Program-made: the position numbers and the translations under genes
In this document: piece after piece, positions 184 through 6,017 of the stretch
Layout: the number at the start of each line of letters is the position of its first letter
Numbering within the stretch: the stretch's first letter is position 1
From: a virus
IMG/VR virus record: IMGVR_UViG_3300046451_000628
Location: 1 to 33,597 of that record
Strand: one strand, 5' to 3'
DNA length: 33,597 nt
The notes under the pieces: generated by a model
The model's input: only the letters and a program-made list of their open reading frames with translations
The model's database searches: none
Told to the model about the DNA's origin: nothing

Positions 184-348
184 ATTATTGCTTCTCTCAG
201 TACCACATTGTGATACAACATCAGTGATACATGTGCATTGAGTAACCTTATTTACTTCAGATGATCCTAGTTGATCAAGGACTATGAAGACTAATAACCT
301 CATGATTGCACAGTATTAAACTGGTGTTGTATTGCTTCCTTTACAGGT

Positions 349-374
349 GTTATAATCAATGCATTGGTTGTAAC
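349..374. repeat. 26-base near-perfect palindrome
   Basis: The two halves pair around a central TGCA, with 9 Watson-Crick and 2 G-U pairs when read as RNA. The core CAATGCATTG is a perfect 10-base DNA palindrome. It could be a dimeric protein binding site or an RNA hairpin. Confidence 0.6.
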
Positions 375-517
375 GAGCTGTCTCACTAACAGTATGCCGA
401 CACAGTAGAAGAGTGTAGTTCACTCAGTTGATATACCATCTACGTACAAAGAGTAGCTTGCGAGATAACAAGCAACAATACCTAACAAGAAGGTTTCATC
501 TAACGTAAACTTGTAGT

Positions 518-537
518 CCTAAGAGTATATTCTTAGG
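518..537 (+). repeat. 7-bp hairpin in the non-coding leader
   Basis: CCTAAGA pairs perfectly with TCTTAGG across a 6-base loop. No T-run follows, so it is not a typical intrinsic terminator. Function unknown. Confidence 0.5.
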
Positions 538-601
538 CAAACATTAGAAAGGACGTGATCATCGTCGTATTCCTTAGCATGAAGACAAACTGCTAACACA
601 T

Positions 602-689
602 TACACGTAATTCACGGTGGTTCGTGAATGGATTATTAAACAGTTGCATAATATGTTTAAATAATGAGGTTCGACTCCTCTACGTGTAC
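602..689 (+). ncRNA. tRNA-like element lacking a standard anticodon arm
   Basis: The ends pair as an acceptor-like stem of 8 bp (TACACGTA, 602-609, with TACGTGTA, 681-688). It stacks directly on a 4-bp T-like arm (GAGG/CCTC) with a canonical TTCGACT loop, 12 bp in all as in a normal tRNA. A D-like arm (ATTCAC/GTGAAT) carries GG in its loop, as needed for the D-loop/T-loop contact. In place of a 5-bp/7-nt anticodon arm, the best pairing is a roughly 10-bp hairpin (632-641 with 655-665, one bulge) with a 13-nt loop. A strained alternative gives a Leu(UAA)-like anticodon loop with one mismatch and two wobble pairs. No CCA is encoded. A start codon follows 25 nt downstream. It could be a decayed tRNA-Leu or a dedicated tRNA-like RNA. 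Confidence 0.55.
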
Positions 690-714
690 TAATTATTAAT
701 TAAACCCAATTCAT

Positions 715-900
715 ATGTCTAAAAACATTCAGTTAACCCCAATCCAACAGGATTACAATCAACATCTTACTAATCAAGCAGAGCTTAGAGATAGTTCATT
801 AAATAGAATTACTCAGATACGTAAAGAAGTAGATAAATTACATGTAGAAGAAACTAAGCTTGAAGAAATAGTTCAAGCACTTAATACTCAAACATCATGA
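715..900 (+). CDS. Small helical protein, unknown function (61 aa)
   Basis: A 61-residue, charged, mostly helical protein. Residues from about 20 to 57 have heptad-like spacing (AELRDSSLNRITQIRKEVDK) and probably form a coiled coil. The ATG follows an A/T-rich leader 25 nt after the tRNA-like element. Its TGA overlaps the ATG of the next small gene, so the two are probably translated together. I recognise no family. A small coiled-coil partner of a larger phage or host protein is possible, but that is inference. Confidence 0.6.
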   Translation: MSKNIQLTPIQQDYNQHLTNQAELRDSSLNRITQIRKEVDKLHVEETKLEEIVQALNTQTS

Positions 901-1052
901 ACAATACTTCCTCTACTCAGTATAAGATTACAACTGCTATCATATTTGTAACCGGTCTTCTAATGGTTATGACATTATTTGCGTCTTGCACCACAACTGG
1001 GCATACAACGACGTACGGTAATCAGAATAGCAATTGTGCAGCATACTTATAA
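897..1052 (+). CDS. Small probable lipoprotein or membrane-anchored protein (51 aa)
   Basis: The ATG overlaps the stop of the preceding gene (ATGA). The frame gives 51 residues: a polar start, a hydrophobic segment at about residues 11-30 (TTAIIFVTGLLMVMTLFAS), then Cys and a Thr/Asn/Gly-rich tail. L-F-A-S-C resembles a lipobox, with Phe at the usually aliphatic -3 position, so signal peptidase II processing is plausible but unproven. If cleaved, the mature peptide would be about 20 residues on the membrane surface. Small phage lipoproteins often alter the host envelope or block superinfection; that role here is inference. The alternative is a plain single-pass membrane peptide. Confidence 0.6.
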   Translation: MNNTSSTQYKITTAIIFVTGLLMVMTLFASCTTTGHTTTYGNQNSNCAAYL

Positions 1053-1063
1053 TACATTAAAGT

Positions 1064-1155
1064 CATCTCGTCGGGTCGTTCCCTAATCCCTTGGTAATTC
1101 TTTGGAGCGAGATGCTTTTCTCTTATGGTCAAGAGGACAACCATCAATAGTCCTC
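1064..1155 (+). promoter_or_regulatory. Structured 5' leader of the 193-aa gene
   Basis: Two inverted repeats fill the gap before the next gene. CATCTCG (1064-1070) pairs with CGAGATG (1108-1114) around an internally paired segment (GGG/CCC), and is followed by CTTTTCTCTT. GAGGAC (1133-1138) pairs with GTCCTC (1150-1155) over an 11-nt loop. The first could be a weak terminator for the small genes upstream or a stabilising leader; the second sits 33 nt before the start codon. I found no known riboswitch pattern. Confidence 0.4.
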
Positions 1156-1188
1156 AACATTTAAATACATGTAATACACCATAACATC

Positions 1189-1770
1189 ATGGCAAATACA
1201 TTAAATACAGGTTCTTTGGAGACCTTAACTCCAGGTAATAGCCTCTTAGTCCAAGCGATTGAGGTGGCTAATGGTAAAATCCAGTTAGAAATTGCTGAAC
1301 GTCTCGAAGGAGGTTCGCAAAGCAATAACGTACTGGGTATGTTTAACAAATCTGACGAACGTTTCTCTTCGGGGGGAGCACGTAGAGCTTGGCTTACTTG
1401 TGAGCCTAGTGATGCGAGCGAACTCTTAGGGGTTGATGTAAGTTCAGATTATACTACGGATGAGCGTGGCAGAAGTGTCAAAGCTCTTAATATTCTAAAC
1501 CCTGCAGTGGGTGATGTAGTTCTTCACGTTCAAGTGAATGAAACTACTGAGCCTTCTGAGTATCAGGCTATGAATGTTGAGACTGCTGCTAAACGCCGTG
1601 GTAAGGATGGGGATTTTATCACCCATCAAGGTATGTACATCTTCGCTAACACTATAGCTGTTAGTGGGGAAGCTACACATACATTTCTAGAGAGTGATGC
1701 ACCTGCAACAACAGGTGGTATCATTGCTGCTCAGAATGTAAATGTTGAGACTGGGGAGATCCTGTCTTAA
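1189..1770 (+). CDS. Unknown 193-aa protein, single-gene transcription unit
   Basis: A 193-residue soluble protein with alternating strand-like hydrophobic segments and many G, T, S and N residues, so probably mostly beta. Examples are GDVVLHVQVNET and GMYIFANTIAV. There is no signal peptide or membrane segment, and the C-terminus is polar (NVETGEILS). I recognise no family; a small nucleic-acid-binding beta-barrel would fit, but no motif proves it. The gene has a structured leader upstream and a perfect intrinsic terminator 22 bases after its stop. That isolates it as its own transcript, an arrangement typical of genes needed in large amounts. Start chosen at the first ATG after the hairpins. 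Confidence 0.75.
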   Translation: MANTLNTGSLETLTPGNSLLVQAIEVANGKIQLEIAERLEGGSQSNNVLGMFNKSDERFSSGGARRAWLTCEPSDASELLGVDVSSDYTTDERGRSVKALNILNPAVGDVVLHVQVNETTEPSEYQAMNVETAAKRRGKDGDFITHQGMYIFANTIAVSGEATHTFLESDAPATTGGIIAAQNVNVETGEILS

Positions 1771-1790
1771 ATACATACTAAGTTGTTATG

Positions 1791-1820
1791 AAGGGTGAGT
1801 GTAAAAGCTCACCCTTTTTT
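1791..1820 (+). terminator. Intrinsic terminator after the 193-aa gene
   Basis: A perfect stem (AAGGGTGAG, 1791-1799, with CTCACCCTT, 1808-1816) and an 8-nt loop run into six T residues (1815-1820). The tRNA-like element at 1823 starts just after it, so that RNA must come from read-through, processing, or a promoter inside this short gap. Confidence 0.85.
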
Positions 1821-1822
1821 AT

Positions 1823-1923
1823 AACCACGACTCATAAGGTGAGGTACTAGGGGGTTTGATTACTTATTGGATGTAGGATTAAGTAATTAAAACTAGTATA
1901 AGGTTCGATTCCTTTCGTGGTTA
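1823..1923 (+). ncRNA. Second tRNA-like element with an extended central stem
   Basis: AACCACGA (1823-1830) pairs perfectly with TCGTGGTT (1915-1922) as an 8-bp acceptor-like stem. It stacks on a 4-bp AAGG/CCTT arm with a canonical TTCGATT T-loop, and A1923 lies at the discriminator position. A D-like arm (CTCA/TGAG, 1831-1843) has a short loop containing GG. The anticodon arm is replaced by a long two-part hairpin: TACTAG/CTAGTA (1845-1850 with 1893-1898) enclosing ATTACTTA/TAAGTAAT (1859-1866 with 1880-1887). I could place no 7-nt anticodon loop. The 8+4 stacking matches the element at 602-689, so the two are probably one RNA family. The next start codon is 28 nt downstream. Confidence 0.55.
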
Positions 1924-1951: not shown

Positions 1952-2200
1952 ATGAGTAGAATGAAACAAATAGCTATGCTTGTAAGAGATAATGAAGCGC
2001 ATGTGTTACACAGGCTTATTAAAACAAGTGAGAAAGCTGATAGAAATGAGGTAAACTTTCTTGGGAAGTCCTACTCTCTTAATGATGCAAGATTAATCCT
2101 TTTATATATGTACAATGAACAAGCCAAACAAAATAAGATTCGTAGGATCGAAAAATCTCTTGACGAGTCTTTCGAAAGCCCACGAGATTCAAATAGCTGA
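1952..2200 (+). CDS. Small charged protein upstream of DNA polymerase (82 aa)
   Basis: An 82-residue, basic, helical protein (MSRMKQIAMLVRDNEAHVLHRL). A segment at about residues 35-55 (NFLGKSYSLNDARLILLYMY) resembles a small helical domain. The start follows an A-rich leader after the second tRNA-like element. Its last 86 bases overlap the polymerase gene in another frame, so the C-terminal tail (RRIEKSLDESFESPRDSNS) is probably dictated by the polymerase coding sequence. Function unknown; the coupling suggests expression together with the polymerase. Confidence 0.65.
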   Translation: MSRMKQIAMLVRDNEAHVLHRLIKTSEKADRNEVNFLGKSYSLNDARLILLYMYNEQAKQNKIRRIEKSLDESFESPRDSNS

Positions 2201-3995
2201 TATTGAAGAGTGTGTGTCATATTGTAAGGACAAGTCTGTTCTTGGGGTAGACACAGAGACTGAAGGCTTTGACTTCACCTGTAAGAAGATGATAATGCTT
2301 CAGATAGGGGATAAAGAAAGACAGTATGTAATAGACACGAGAGTTATAGATATTTCCTCATTAAAACAAATACTAGAAGATGAAAAGATTACTAAGATAT
2401 TTCATAACGCCAAGTTCGACTATAAGTTCATCAAGCGATGGGCTAATATCGAGGTTCAAGGAATATACGATACGTTTCTTACGGAAAGAGTTATTCATTG
2501 CGGTAAACAAGACCACGGTTACTCATTGGCAAGGTGTGTCAATAGGTACATCGGTGTTACTTTGGACAAGACGACGAGAAATAAATTCATCGGACTCAAA
2601 GGTCAACCGTATACTATCGACCAGATTACGTATGGGGCAAACGATGTTATTTATTTGCTTGACATCAGGGCGAAGCAGTTACCGTTATTACAAACGTATA
2701 ACTTGGAACAGACTGCCCGTCTCGAAAACGAAGTAGTTAAAGTATTTGCTGAGGTAGAGTACGAAGGCTTAGCTATTGATAAGGATAAGTGGACAGCAAT
2801 GGCTAAAGACAATTTAGAACTAGCTCGTGTTAAAGAGTTAGAGTTAGATGTAATGGTTACGGCTGACCCTAGACTAATCAAGTACAAACTCCCAATGCAA
2901 GTAGATATGTTTACAGATCCCAAGGATCTTAGACGTACACATATTAACTGGAGCTCACCTTTACAAGTGCTTAGATTATTTAAGAACTTTGTACCATCTC
3001 TTGAAGATGTAAACGGTAAGAATTTAAATAAATATAGATATAAAAACAATCTTATAGATGAGTACATTAAATATAAAGAGTGCACCAAACTTGCTAACGC
3101 ATACGGTATTAAGTTCTTCAATTACGTCAACGCAGATGGGAGAGTCCATACAAATTTCTCACAAATACTTGATACAGGACGAGTTTCCTCTAGTAAGCCA
3201 AACATGCAACAAATACCTAGTAACAATACCTTTAGAAACTGTTTCATTACTGAGGAAGGATGGGTCTTTGTCTCTAGTGATTACTCTAGTCAGGAATTAA
3301 ATGTCATCGCATATGGGAGTAAAGATCCAGTATGGCTTGATGCTCTCTCCAAAGGCATGGATTTACACGGAGTATGTGCGGATCTCGTATTTGAGGACAG
3401 GTGGAGAGACGCTGACGCTGATGCACGGAAGGAGCTTAGAACTCAAATCAAAACAATCAACTTCGGTTTGGCCTACGGAATGGGCCCTTTCAAATTAGCA
3501 GAGAATCTTCAAATATCTAAGAAAGAAGCAGAGCTACTTATAGAGAAATACTTTACAGAGTTTCCTAATATTAGAGAGTTTCTAAACAAACTAGGTACAT
3601 ACGGTAAACGTAATGGTTATATACAGACCTTTGCTCCTTTTTATAGGAGAAGATGGTTTGATACCTGGTATCCTAGAATGTATGATGATAAGAGTAAGAT
3701 GATTGAGCTTGGGAGTATAGAACGTGCGTCTAAAAACACCCCAATTCAAGGGTCAAGCGCTGATATGACTAAGCTTGCACTTGTCTATGTACACAGAGAT
3801 ATTCAAAAGTCTTGGAAGGATACTGTGAAAATTGTAATGACTGTACATGATCAAATAGATACTGTATGTCGTGAAGATGTAGCCGAAGATTGGGCTATTC
3901 GTATGACTGAACTAATGGAGAAGGCCGCTAAGGTTGTTATCCCTAACGGTTTGCTTAAAGCAGACACAAATATCTCGAAAACATGGGAGAAATAA
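2115..3995 (+). CDS. Family A DNA polymerase with 3'-5' proofreading exonuclease
   Basis: Replicative phage DNA polymerase of the Pol I/T7 type (626 aa). The N-terminal DnaQ-like exonuclease shows Exo I D46-T-E48, Exo II N98-x-x-F-D102 and Exo III Y173-x3-D177. The polymerase domain shows the GRVSSSKPNMQQIP motif, motif A (SDYSSQE, catalytic D389), motif B (K446-TINFGLAYG) and motif C V-H578-D579-Q580. Motif C normally reads HDE, so the last position is Glu to Gln here. There is no N-terminal 5' nuclease domain; that activity is a separate gene at 16864. The start at 2115 is the only ATG before Exo I, which makes the 86-base overlap with the previous gene real unless a rare start is used. Its stop overlaps the next small gene by 13 bases. 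Confidence 0.95.
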   Translation: MNKPNKIRFVGSKNLLTSLSKAHEIQIADIEECVSYCKDKSVLGVDTETEGFDFTCKKMIMLQIGDKERQYVIDTRVIDISSLKQILEDEKITKIFHNAKFDYKFIKRWANIEVQGIYDTFLTERVIHCGKQDHGYSLARCVNRYIGVTLDKTTRNKFIGLKGQPYTIDQITYGANDVIYLLDIRAKQLPLLQTYNLEQTARLENEVVKVFAEVEYEGLAIDKDKWTAMAKDNLELARVKELELDVMVTADPRLIKYKLPMQVDMFTDPKDLRRTHINWSSPLQVLRLFKNFVPSLEDVNGKNLNKYRYKNNLIDEYIKYKECTKLANAYGIKFFNYVNADGRVHTNFSQILDTGRVSSSKPNMQQIPSNNTFRNCFITEEGWVFVSSDYSSQELNVIAYGSKDPVWLDALSKGMDLHGVCADLVFEDRWRDADADARKELRTQIKTINFGLAYGMGPFKLAENLQISKKEAELLIEKYFTEFPNIREFLNKLGTYGKRNGYIQTFAPFYRRRWFDTWYPRMYDDKSKMIELGSIERASKNTPIQGSSADMTKLALVYVHRDIQKSWKDTVKIVMTVHDQIDTVCREDVAEDWAIRMTELMEKAAKVVIPNGLLKADTNISKTWEK

Positions 3996-5455: not shown

Positions 5456-5529
5456 GCTTTCGTAGCTCAGCTGGTTAGAGCATCTCACTTTTAATGAGAG
5501 GGTCCTGGGTTCGAGTCCCAGCGAGAGTA
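5456..5529 (+). tRNA. tRNA-Lys (anticodon UUU)
   Basis: A canonical cloverleaf of 74 nt. Acceptor GCTTTCG pairs with CGAGAGT (two wobble pairs), with discriminator A5529. The D-arm is GCTC/GAGC-like with an AGCTGGTTAGA loop. The anticodon arm TCTCA/TGAGA has loop CTTTTAA (anticodon TTT), and the T-arm CTGGG/CCCAG has loop TTCGAGT. CCA is not encoded. Decoding AAA suits this AT-rich genome. Unlike the elements at 602 and 1823, every arm here is standard. Confidence 0.95.
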
Positions 5530-5561
5530 CATTATTTATTAACATATTAAAACCAAACATA

Positions 5562-6017
5562 ATGGGAGTAGCATCAGAAGAATTAAATGAACAGCTACAA
5601 GGTGATGTAGAACAAGTAATAGAATCTGTACAAATTATAACAGGTATTACATACACTCAAATATTATCTACTAAACGAAGTAGACATTTAGTAGATGCAA
5701 GAAAGATATTAGTTAATGTGATGCGTAAGCATCTTAGACTTACCTGCTATCAAGTAGGTAAGGTTATAGACAAAGATCATTCGAGCGTAATATATTATGA
5801 AAAACAACACCCTATCCACATGGGGGAGACGGAATATAGGAGACTATACTCTGCAGTCAGTGGAACTTTCTTGATCAGTAAAAGTGTGCGAGATGAAGAA
5901 AGATTACAAGATCAGTTTCGAAACCTTCAACGTAGAACTAGAGTTCTTTTAAATGCCTTAGAAGGGCAAGGAGAAAGCCTCAACAGGGGAATGCGTGAAG
6001 TTAAAAACAGTGTTTAG
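5562..6017 (+). CDS. DnaA domain IV-like DNA-binding protein (151 aa)
   Basis: Residues 40-85 match the DNA-binding domain of the bacterial initiator DnaA: R-x-x-LVDARKI, MRKHLRLTCYQVGKVIDKDHSSVIYY. DHSSV at 72-76 corresponds to the DnaA DHTTV signature that reads the DnaA box. The AAA+ ATPase domain is absent, so the protein can bind DNA but cannot itself form an ATP-dependent initiation filament. Residues 100-151 form a basic helical tail (RNLQRRTRVLL). The gene starts 32 nt after tRNA-Lys and heads the replication gene block. An initiator-like origin binder or a decoy for host DnaA sites is a reasonable inference. Confidence 0.85.
   Translation: MGVASEELNEQLQGDVEQVIESVQIITGITYTQILSTKRSRHLVDARKILVNVMRKHLRLTCYQVGKVIDKDHSSVIYYEKQHPIHMGETEYRRLYSAVSGTFLISKSVRDEERLQDQFRNLQRRTRVLLNALEGQGESLNRGMREVKNSV

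Follow-up and report, generated by a model that had tools for sequence, protein, structure and literature searches.

Non-decoding tRNA-like elements recur at gene borders in a phage lineage and may act as cutting points in its transcripts

Two RNA elements in the IMG/VR virus record IMGVR_UViG_3300046451_000628 (33,597 bases, all of which were analyzed and are here called the window) keep the acceptor/T stack and the elbow of a tRNA, and carry unrelated hairpins at the place of the anticodon arm. Compensatory changes among relatives preserve their fold, elements of the same kind recur in related phages at the borders of one conserved gene, and one relative has an ordinary tRNA gene at the site of the second element. 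From these properties we consider it probable that the elements are cut by tRNA-processing enzymes if they are transcribed. That cutting is the function for which they were selected, as punctuation of a transcript in the manner of the t-elements of plant mitochondria, is a more tentative proposal, to which we give somewhat less than an even chance. The window encodes a family A DNA polymerase whose best named matches include crAss-like phages, at about 27–31% identity.

The first element, e1, occupies positions 601 to 689 on the + strand, with a paired part from 602 to 688 (+C689). Its 8-bp acceptor stem (602–609/681–688), after which 689 is the first unpaired base, encloses a D arm (610–617/622–629) with the loop UGGU, an extra arm (632–642/654–665) in place of the anticodon arm, and a 4-bp T arm (666–669/677–680) with the loop TTCGACT (670–676). 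The second element, e2, lies on the same strand at 1822–1924, the element itself ending at 1923 and position 74 being C1924. It has an 8-bp acceptor stem (1823–1830/1915–1922), extended to 9 bp by T1822-A1923; a D arm (1831–1835/1839–1843) with AAGG; a two-part extra arm (1844–1850/1893–1899 and 1855–1866/1880–1891); and a 4-bp T arm (1900–1903/1911–1914) with the loop TTCGATT (1904–1910). The replacement hairpins of the two elements are unrelated to each other, and the folding z-scores were −3.9 for e1 and −3.7 for e2. Both elements thus have the geometry given in the original prediction, namely an 8-bp stem, a 4-bp T arm with a TTCGAYT loop, and a D arm with GG. Its extents, 602–689 and 1823–1923, needed small corrections, because pairing in e1 stops at 688 and e2 gains the T1822-A1923 pair. 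Its description of the elements as having no anticodon arm was right in that they cannot decode, but the third arm is replaced, and is gone only in the shortest relatives.

Neither element could be assigned to a known RNA class. The only call that ARAGORN made in the window was a tRNA-Lys at 5456–5530; it called neither e1 nor e2. Both lack the 7-nt anticodon loop on a 5-bp stem of a canonical tRNA, their extra arms being 11–12 bp long with apical loops of 11–13 nt. A covariance search with the tRNA family RF00005 gave no match above the gathering cut-off at e1 or e2; some of the relatives at the e2 site exceeded that cut-off, with 52–55 bits. The only Rfam match to e1 (601–689) was tRNA-Sec (RF01852), at 31.4 bits against a cut-off of 47. 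This identity was rejected because the match is below threshold, there is no UCA anticodon, and the anticodon and variable arms fail to align. Identity with tmRNA was also rejected, since ARAGORN found no tmRNA and the best Rfam tmRNA match reached 7.1 bits over 11 positions.

Homologues of e1 were found at L050 179–268, at L086 8935–9021 (on a contig shared with L130), and at L129 36–123; the last was found by a pattern that held no more than the D-arm end and the T loop, and the other two also came up in the descriptor scan presented below. In the alignment of these with the window e1 (n = 4), 97.5% of the cells were paired and 8 pairs had changed on both sides, compared with a mean of 3.5 in shuffled alignments and at most 5 in slid versions. 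The extra arm, for example, changes from ATTATT/AATAAT to ATTATC/GGTAAT and to ATTGTT/AGCAAT, and the T arm from GAGG/CCTC to GGGG/CCCC. For the e2 site nine sequences were aligned, eight elements and one canonical tRNA. They had 12 doubly changed pairs, in 24 cells, distributed over the acceptor, the extra arm, and the T arm, whereas the shuffled controls had 4.4 pairs and 6.5 cells and slid versions at most 7. Because members of this group were picked in part for pairing acceptor and T stems, the four pairs in the extra arm are the cleaner evidence. The original prediction had proposed a maintained structure rather than decay, and had named a lack of compensatory changes in related phages as evidence to the contrary; such changes were plentiful, and we conclude that the fold of e1 and e2 is maintained. 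Whereas it had suggested a covariance model of both elements, one built from e1 alone recovered e2 and other such elements. With E allowed up to 1 the model gave 15 matches, the weakest two or three of them doubtful, including e2 of the window (20.5 bits, E 0.12) and L014 (30.2 bits, E 4e-4). Only one of the 15, the L014 element at the e2 site, was called by ARAGORN, which labelled it tRNA-Thr(agt).

The relatives comprised 117 related IMG/VR loci, some from the same contig, and the scan covered 119 sequences (1.48 Mb). The descriptor required a 4–5 bp T arm with a T-loop-like heptamer, stacked directly on 7–9 acceptor pairs, within 35–160 nt; it left the D loop and the bases 3' of the stem unconstrained. 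In Markov sequence it matched by chance 1.75 times per Mb-strand, so that about 0.1 chance matches are expected in both strands of the window. The window had two matches other than the tRNA, both intergenic and on the gene strand. In the 1.48 Mb of related sequence the gene strand had 100 distinct matches, and the opposite strand, for which about 2.6 were expected, had none. Ordinary tRNAs accounted for 55 of the matches. Of the other 45, three were dropped: one falls within a coding ORF, and two we took for mis-registered tRNAs. This leaves 42 non-decoding elements of 48–146 nt, which form 23 sequence families and without exception lie on the gene strand. The two copies noticed originally are therefore both real but not a lone pair; they belong to a class with at least 42 members.

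Features that the descriptor left free were constant in this class. All 42 elements have GG in the D-loop position, at most 19 nt past the 5' strand of the acceptor, compared with a mean of 28.7 (sd 2.9) in shuffled controls; none of 500 shuffles reached 42. A C at position 74 or directly next to it is likewise present in all 42 (chance 0.34 each; p 1.6e-20, or p 1.4e-11 with one element per family), and in strict register this C is present in 19 of 23 families (p 5e-11). Because the elements are related and not independent, the per-family figures are the safer ones. Among the ordinary tRNAs of these phages, 53 of 55 have C after the discriminator. The acceptor and T stems add up to 12 bp, as in tRNA, in 34 of 42 elements. 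ACCA follows the element in L050, L086, and L129 (8+4 pairs, A73, CCA); by homology with these the window e1 has C73 and T74, and thus conforms to the C74 rule only in an alternative register. CCA is encoded at positions 74–76 of 6 of the 42 elements and of none of the 55 ordinary tRNAs. The motif GGGGT was found in the replacement arms of 6 of 23 families (shuffled mean 1.5, p 0.005), but it was one of four motifs tried and the p value is uncorrected, so we do not rely on it. A minimal element of about 46 nt, TGAAGAG..GGGGTTCGATTCCCCCCTCTTCA, which the strict descriptor misses, is present at L006 4306–4350 (contig shared with L022), directly 5' of a lipoprotein-like ORF. Of the control phages, Cellulophaga phage phi14:2 and the tRNA array of PA5oct had no such element; Myrna had four matches not called by ARAGORN, two of which are annotated tRNAs.

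The elements appear to derive from tRNA genes. In L087 the e2 site, which lies between the polymerase gene and the 193-aa gene described below, is occupied by a canonical tRNA-Thr(UGU). The elements of the L030–L046 group have the same 19-nt D arm as this tRNA, and the loop of the L035 element retains TTTGTAC, its anticodon loop. Together these observations suggest that the e2-site elements descend from a tRNA that lost decoding and kept the part needed for processing. A second group, with the acceptor AGTCAGG, has a D arm of the tRNA-Leu type and adjoins a tRNA-Arg(UCU); a tRNA-Leu type D arm marks the TAGTCAGG group. Such clear ancestry is what would be seen if the elements were functionless, decaying tRNA genes. 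We consider that explanation improbable, given the compensatory changes in the acceptor, T, and extra arms, the perfect acceptor and T stems with GG in 42 of 42 elements, and the C at or beside position 74; moreover, the phage of record G012 retains two elements and has no tRNA gene.

By coordinates, 28 of the 42 elements flank a conserved gene that encodes a 193-aa protein (1189–1770 in the window, + strand). Pfam and PHROG searches with this protein gave no match, and its AlphaFold model, which is β-rich (pLDDT 69), had no match in the PDB and one unnamed viral match. Just 3' of this gene, at the e2 site, relatives carry several unrelated families of elements. In the L030–L046 group the element starts 12–22 nt past that gene's stop codon, a position that an intrinsic terminator occupies in relatives. 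Both are present in L014, L019, and L082 and in the window, in which a terminator-like hairpin, AAGGGTGAGTGTAAAAGCTCACCCTT followed by a T run, lies directly 5' of e2 (1790–1820, + strand). Nearly all elements are intergenic and on the coding strand. Each of four long records (67–88 kb) has one to three, all between replication-side genes, one of them overlapping a short ORF on the opposite strand. Tandem arrays occur as well: in L071 a tRNA-Arg is followed by two elements with 4-nt gaps, and L030 and L042 have elements in tandem with ordinary tRNAs.

The leader of the 193-aa gene contains an H-type pseudoknot (1125–1155, + strand; S1 1125–1129/1140–1144, S2 1133–1138/1150–1155), located 30–42 nt upstream of the start codon. 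Both of its stems covary in more than 10 relatives, with variants such as ATGGT/ACCAT with GAGGAC/GTCCTC and GGTCT/GGACC with GTGGCA/TGCCAC, and it recalls the autoregulatory leader of T4 gene 32 (PMC3014915). In the same spacer, at 1063–1117, there is a hairpin CATCTCGTCGGG...GAGCGAGATG, whose counterpart in L013 is conserved with changes, CATTTCGTCGGG...GAGCGAATG.

Downstream of the elements there is an A+T-rich stretch, often with an ATG 15–35 nt further. In the window, a 61-aa ORF (715–900, + strand), which has a homologue in L129, starts 26 nt past e1, and an 82-aa ORF (1952–2200, + strand), followed by the DNA polymerase A gene (2115–3995), starts 28 nt past e2. The spacing alone is no proof of a relation to these ORFs, because ordinary tRNAs here lie at similar distances from the next ATG. 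It would fit an uncut leader that controls the downstream ORF (the 61-aa ORF, or the 82-aa and polymerase ORFs) in cis, like a riboswitch. That reading is very unlikely, however: the elements of many relatives are far from any start codon or directly follow a stop codon, no features of an expression platform are shared, and a conserved 55-nt block has e1 on one side in the window and on the other side in L129, yet within the same spacer (window 513–601; L129 5–232). The block itself (window 542–596, also L026 4142–4196) may be a structured RNA. Window positions 184–600 form a 400-nt spacer whose + strand has no plausible gene; the matching spacers in L019, L052, L082, and L086 contain further tRNA-like elements.

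Bacterial RNase P accepts extensive truncations of tRNA (review, PMC4919922), and in plant mitochondria t-elements set the ends of mRNAs by way of RNase P and RNase Z and are not charged (review, PMC11658184). Because the conserved part of the phage elements is what bacterial RNase P and the enzymes acting on tRNA 3' ends recognize, and because of these precedents, we propose cutting as their role. The original prediction had suggested three jobs, namely RNA processing site, decoy, and regulatory leader; each is kept here as an alternative, and comparison among relatives points toward recognition by enzymes that process the ends of tRNAs. The elements derive from tRNA and keep the acceptor/T stack, the elbow of D loop and T loop and, in most members, the base after the discriminator. 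Transcription would pass through e1 and e2, which lie on the coding strand in spacers of the early/replication operon. Host RNase P would then cut the polycistronic transcript at their 5' ends, at about 602 and 1822/1823, and a 3' tRNA-processing enzyme at their 3' ends, at about 689 and 1923. The cuts would free the mRNA bearing the 193-aa gene, around which the elements would act as cutting points, and would leave the downstream mRNAs with short, A+T-rich, unstructured leaders of 26 nt (61-aa ORF) and 28 nt (82-aa and polymerase ORFs). Selection would maintain the cut rather than the RNA that is released. Since e2 of the window comes right after a terminator, a cut there would matter only for read-through RNA.

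Two observations fit this proposal less well. Where elements stand in tandem with ordinary tRNAs (L071, L030, L042), an extra cutting site would add little, and the apical loop of e1, UUUACGCAU, is conserved in three of four sequences although cutting alone would not need it. Both would be accommodated by the main rival reading, in which the released RNA itself is what matters, as a small, stable, tRNA-like RNA that acts in trans. It might be a decoy that binds host proteins which target tRNAs (e.g., anticodon nucleases) but offers them no anticodon loop to cut, or a scaffold by way of its apical loop. We regard such a product as possible, at about one chance in three. It is favored by the preservation of the e1 apical loop while the stem below changes by compensation, by the CCA encoded after 6 of 42 elements and 0 of 55 tRNAs, by the tandems with tRNAs (L071, L030), tRNA-Arg(UCU) among them, and by RNA C of phage T4, a known small stable RNA beside a tRNA-Arg with the same architecture. 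On the other hand, the 23 families have no sequence in common in their replacement arms, whose length varies from almost nothing (the 48-nt element of L084) to more than 100 nt, and unrelated elements reuse the same gene border. Antisense pairing of the e1 loop with a target was considered and rejected: among the e1-bearing loci, a complement to TTACGCAT was found only as the reverse-strand copy in L130 and at window position 5721, and the loop of the window's own e1 differs from TTACGCAT.

A further reading was considered because of two long tRNA-like elements (140 and 143 nt) in Bacteroides phage crAss001, which come immediately 3' of gp96, an early gene for a TROVE (Ro60-like) protein; these two are possibly phage Y RNAs. 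They are at 96203–96342 and 96454–96596 (L134 43524–43663 and 43775–43917) and share GAGTTACTTCAA. A passage of PMC7790460 describes bacterial Y RNAs as mimics of tRNAs (Chen et al. 2014), and e1 and e2 could likewise be YrlA-like partners of a Ro60/TROVE protein. Neither matched the YrlA family, and a search that detected the crAss001 gene as a control revealed no Ro60/TROVE gene in the window or in any of 22 related records, which are fragments of 24–88 kb. YrlA identity was rejected on these grounds, and a Y-RNA role in this lineage is extremely improbable. The window elements resemble YrlA in being tRNA mimics that do not decode, but the records searched from their clade showed neither the protein partner nor the family match.

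In crAss001, the annotated pseudo-tRNA crAss001_t25 (101478–101569) and the two unannotated elements by gp96 have the acceptor, D, and T arms of a tRNA and an expanded anticodon region. Unlike e1 and e2, they belong to a distant phage, whose polymerase is only 27% identical to that of the window, and they are at other sites and linked to TROVE. At the 3' ends of MALAT1 and MEN β, RNase P and RNase Z cut the tRNA-like mascRNA and menRNA, which creates a transcript end (PMC4919922); these are parts of eukaryotic lncRNAs and are unrelated to e1 and e2. No paper on such a tRNA-like class in crAss-like phages was found in the literature searched, which included few subscription journals; we attribute this to tRNA finders, which skip the elements or mislabel them (no call, or 'tRNA-???').

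Plant mitochondrial t-elements are the closest parallel in function. They are said to have been described by Hanic-Joyce in 1990 and by Forner in 2007. Like the phage elements, they are derived from tRNA, lie at mRNA ends, keep the secondary structure of a tRNA, and have no role in translation; for the phage elements the location at putative mRNA ends was judged from gene positions. In plants, cleavage by RNase P and RNase Z sets the mRNA ends, whereas in the phage elements cleavage is predicted. The phage elements also differ in residing in phage DNA and in having a decoding arm that is lost or exchanged for unrelated hairpins, in elements as short as 48 nt. As far as sequence can indicate, e1 and e2 behave like t-elements.

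The closest parallel in architecture is RNA C of T4 (rnaC, or species 1 RNA; L131 1410–1502), which the same descriptor finds. It has a 7–8 bp acceptor stem, a 5-bp T arm, and a hairpin that replaces the anticodon arm, and like e1 it gives a weak match to tRNA-Sec, at its tRNA-like ends. Its 3' end as annotated coincides with the discriminator, and it is clustered with tRNA-Arg(UCU). In contrast to e1 and e2, it is a 139-nt RNA with a 45-nt 5' extension, present as a single copy in a tRNA array, and the likeness is one of fold. Since its tRNA-like part begins 45 nt past the annotated 5' end, cutting by RNase P need not apply to all elements of this kind. We see an even chance that the lineage of the window has repeatedly made non-decoding tRNA-like RNAs out of tRNA genes, in at least 23 families, for a shared purpose, either punctuation of mRNAs by host machinery or cleavage-proof decoys, and that T4 RNA C is in the same functional class. 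If the elements are cutting points, these phages would use the trick of tRNA punctuation known from mitochondria; if they act in trans, they would be candidates for countering defenses that target tRNAs. The links to crAss001, which is cultured, and to T4 RNA C make both ideas testable.
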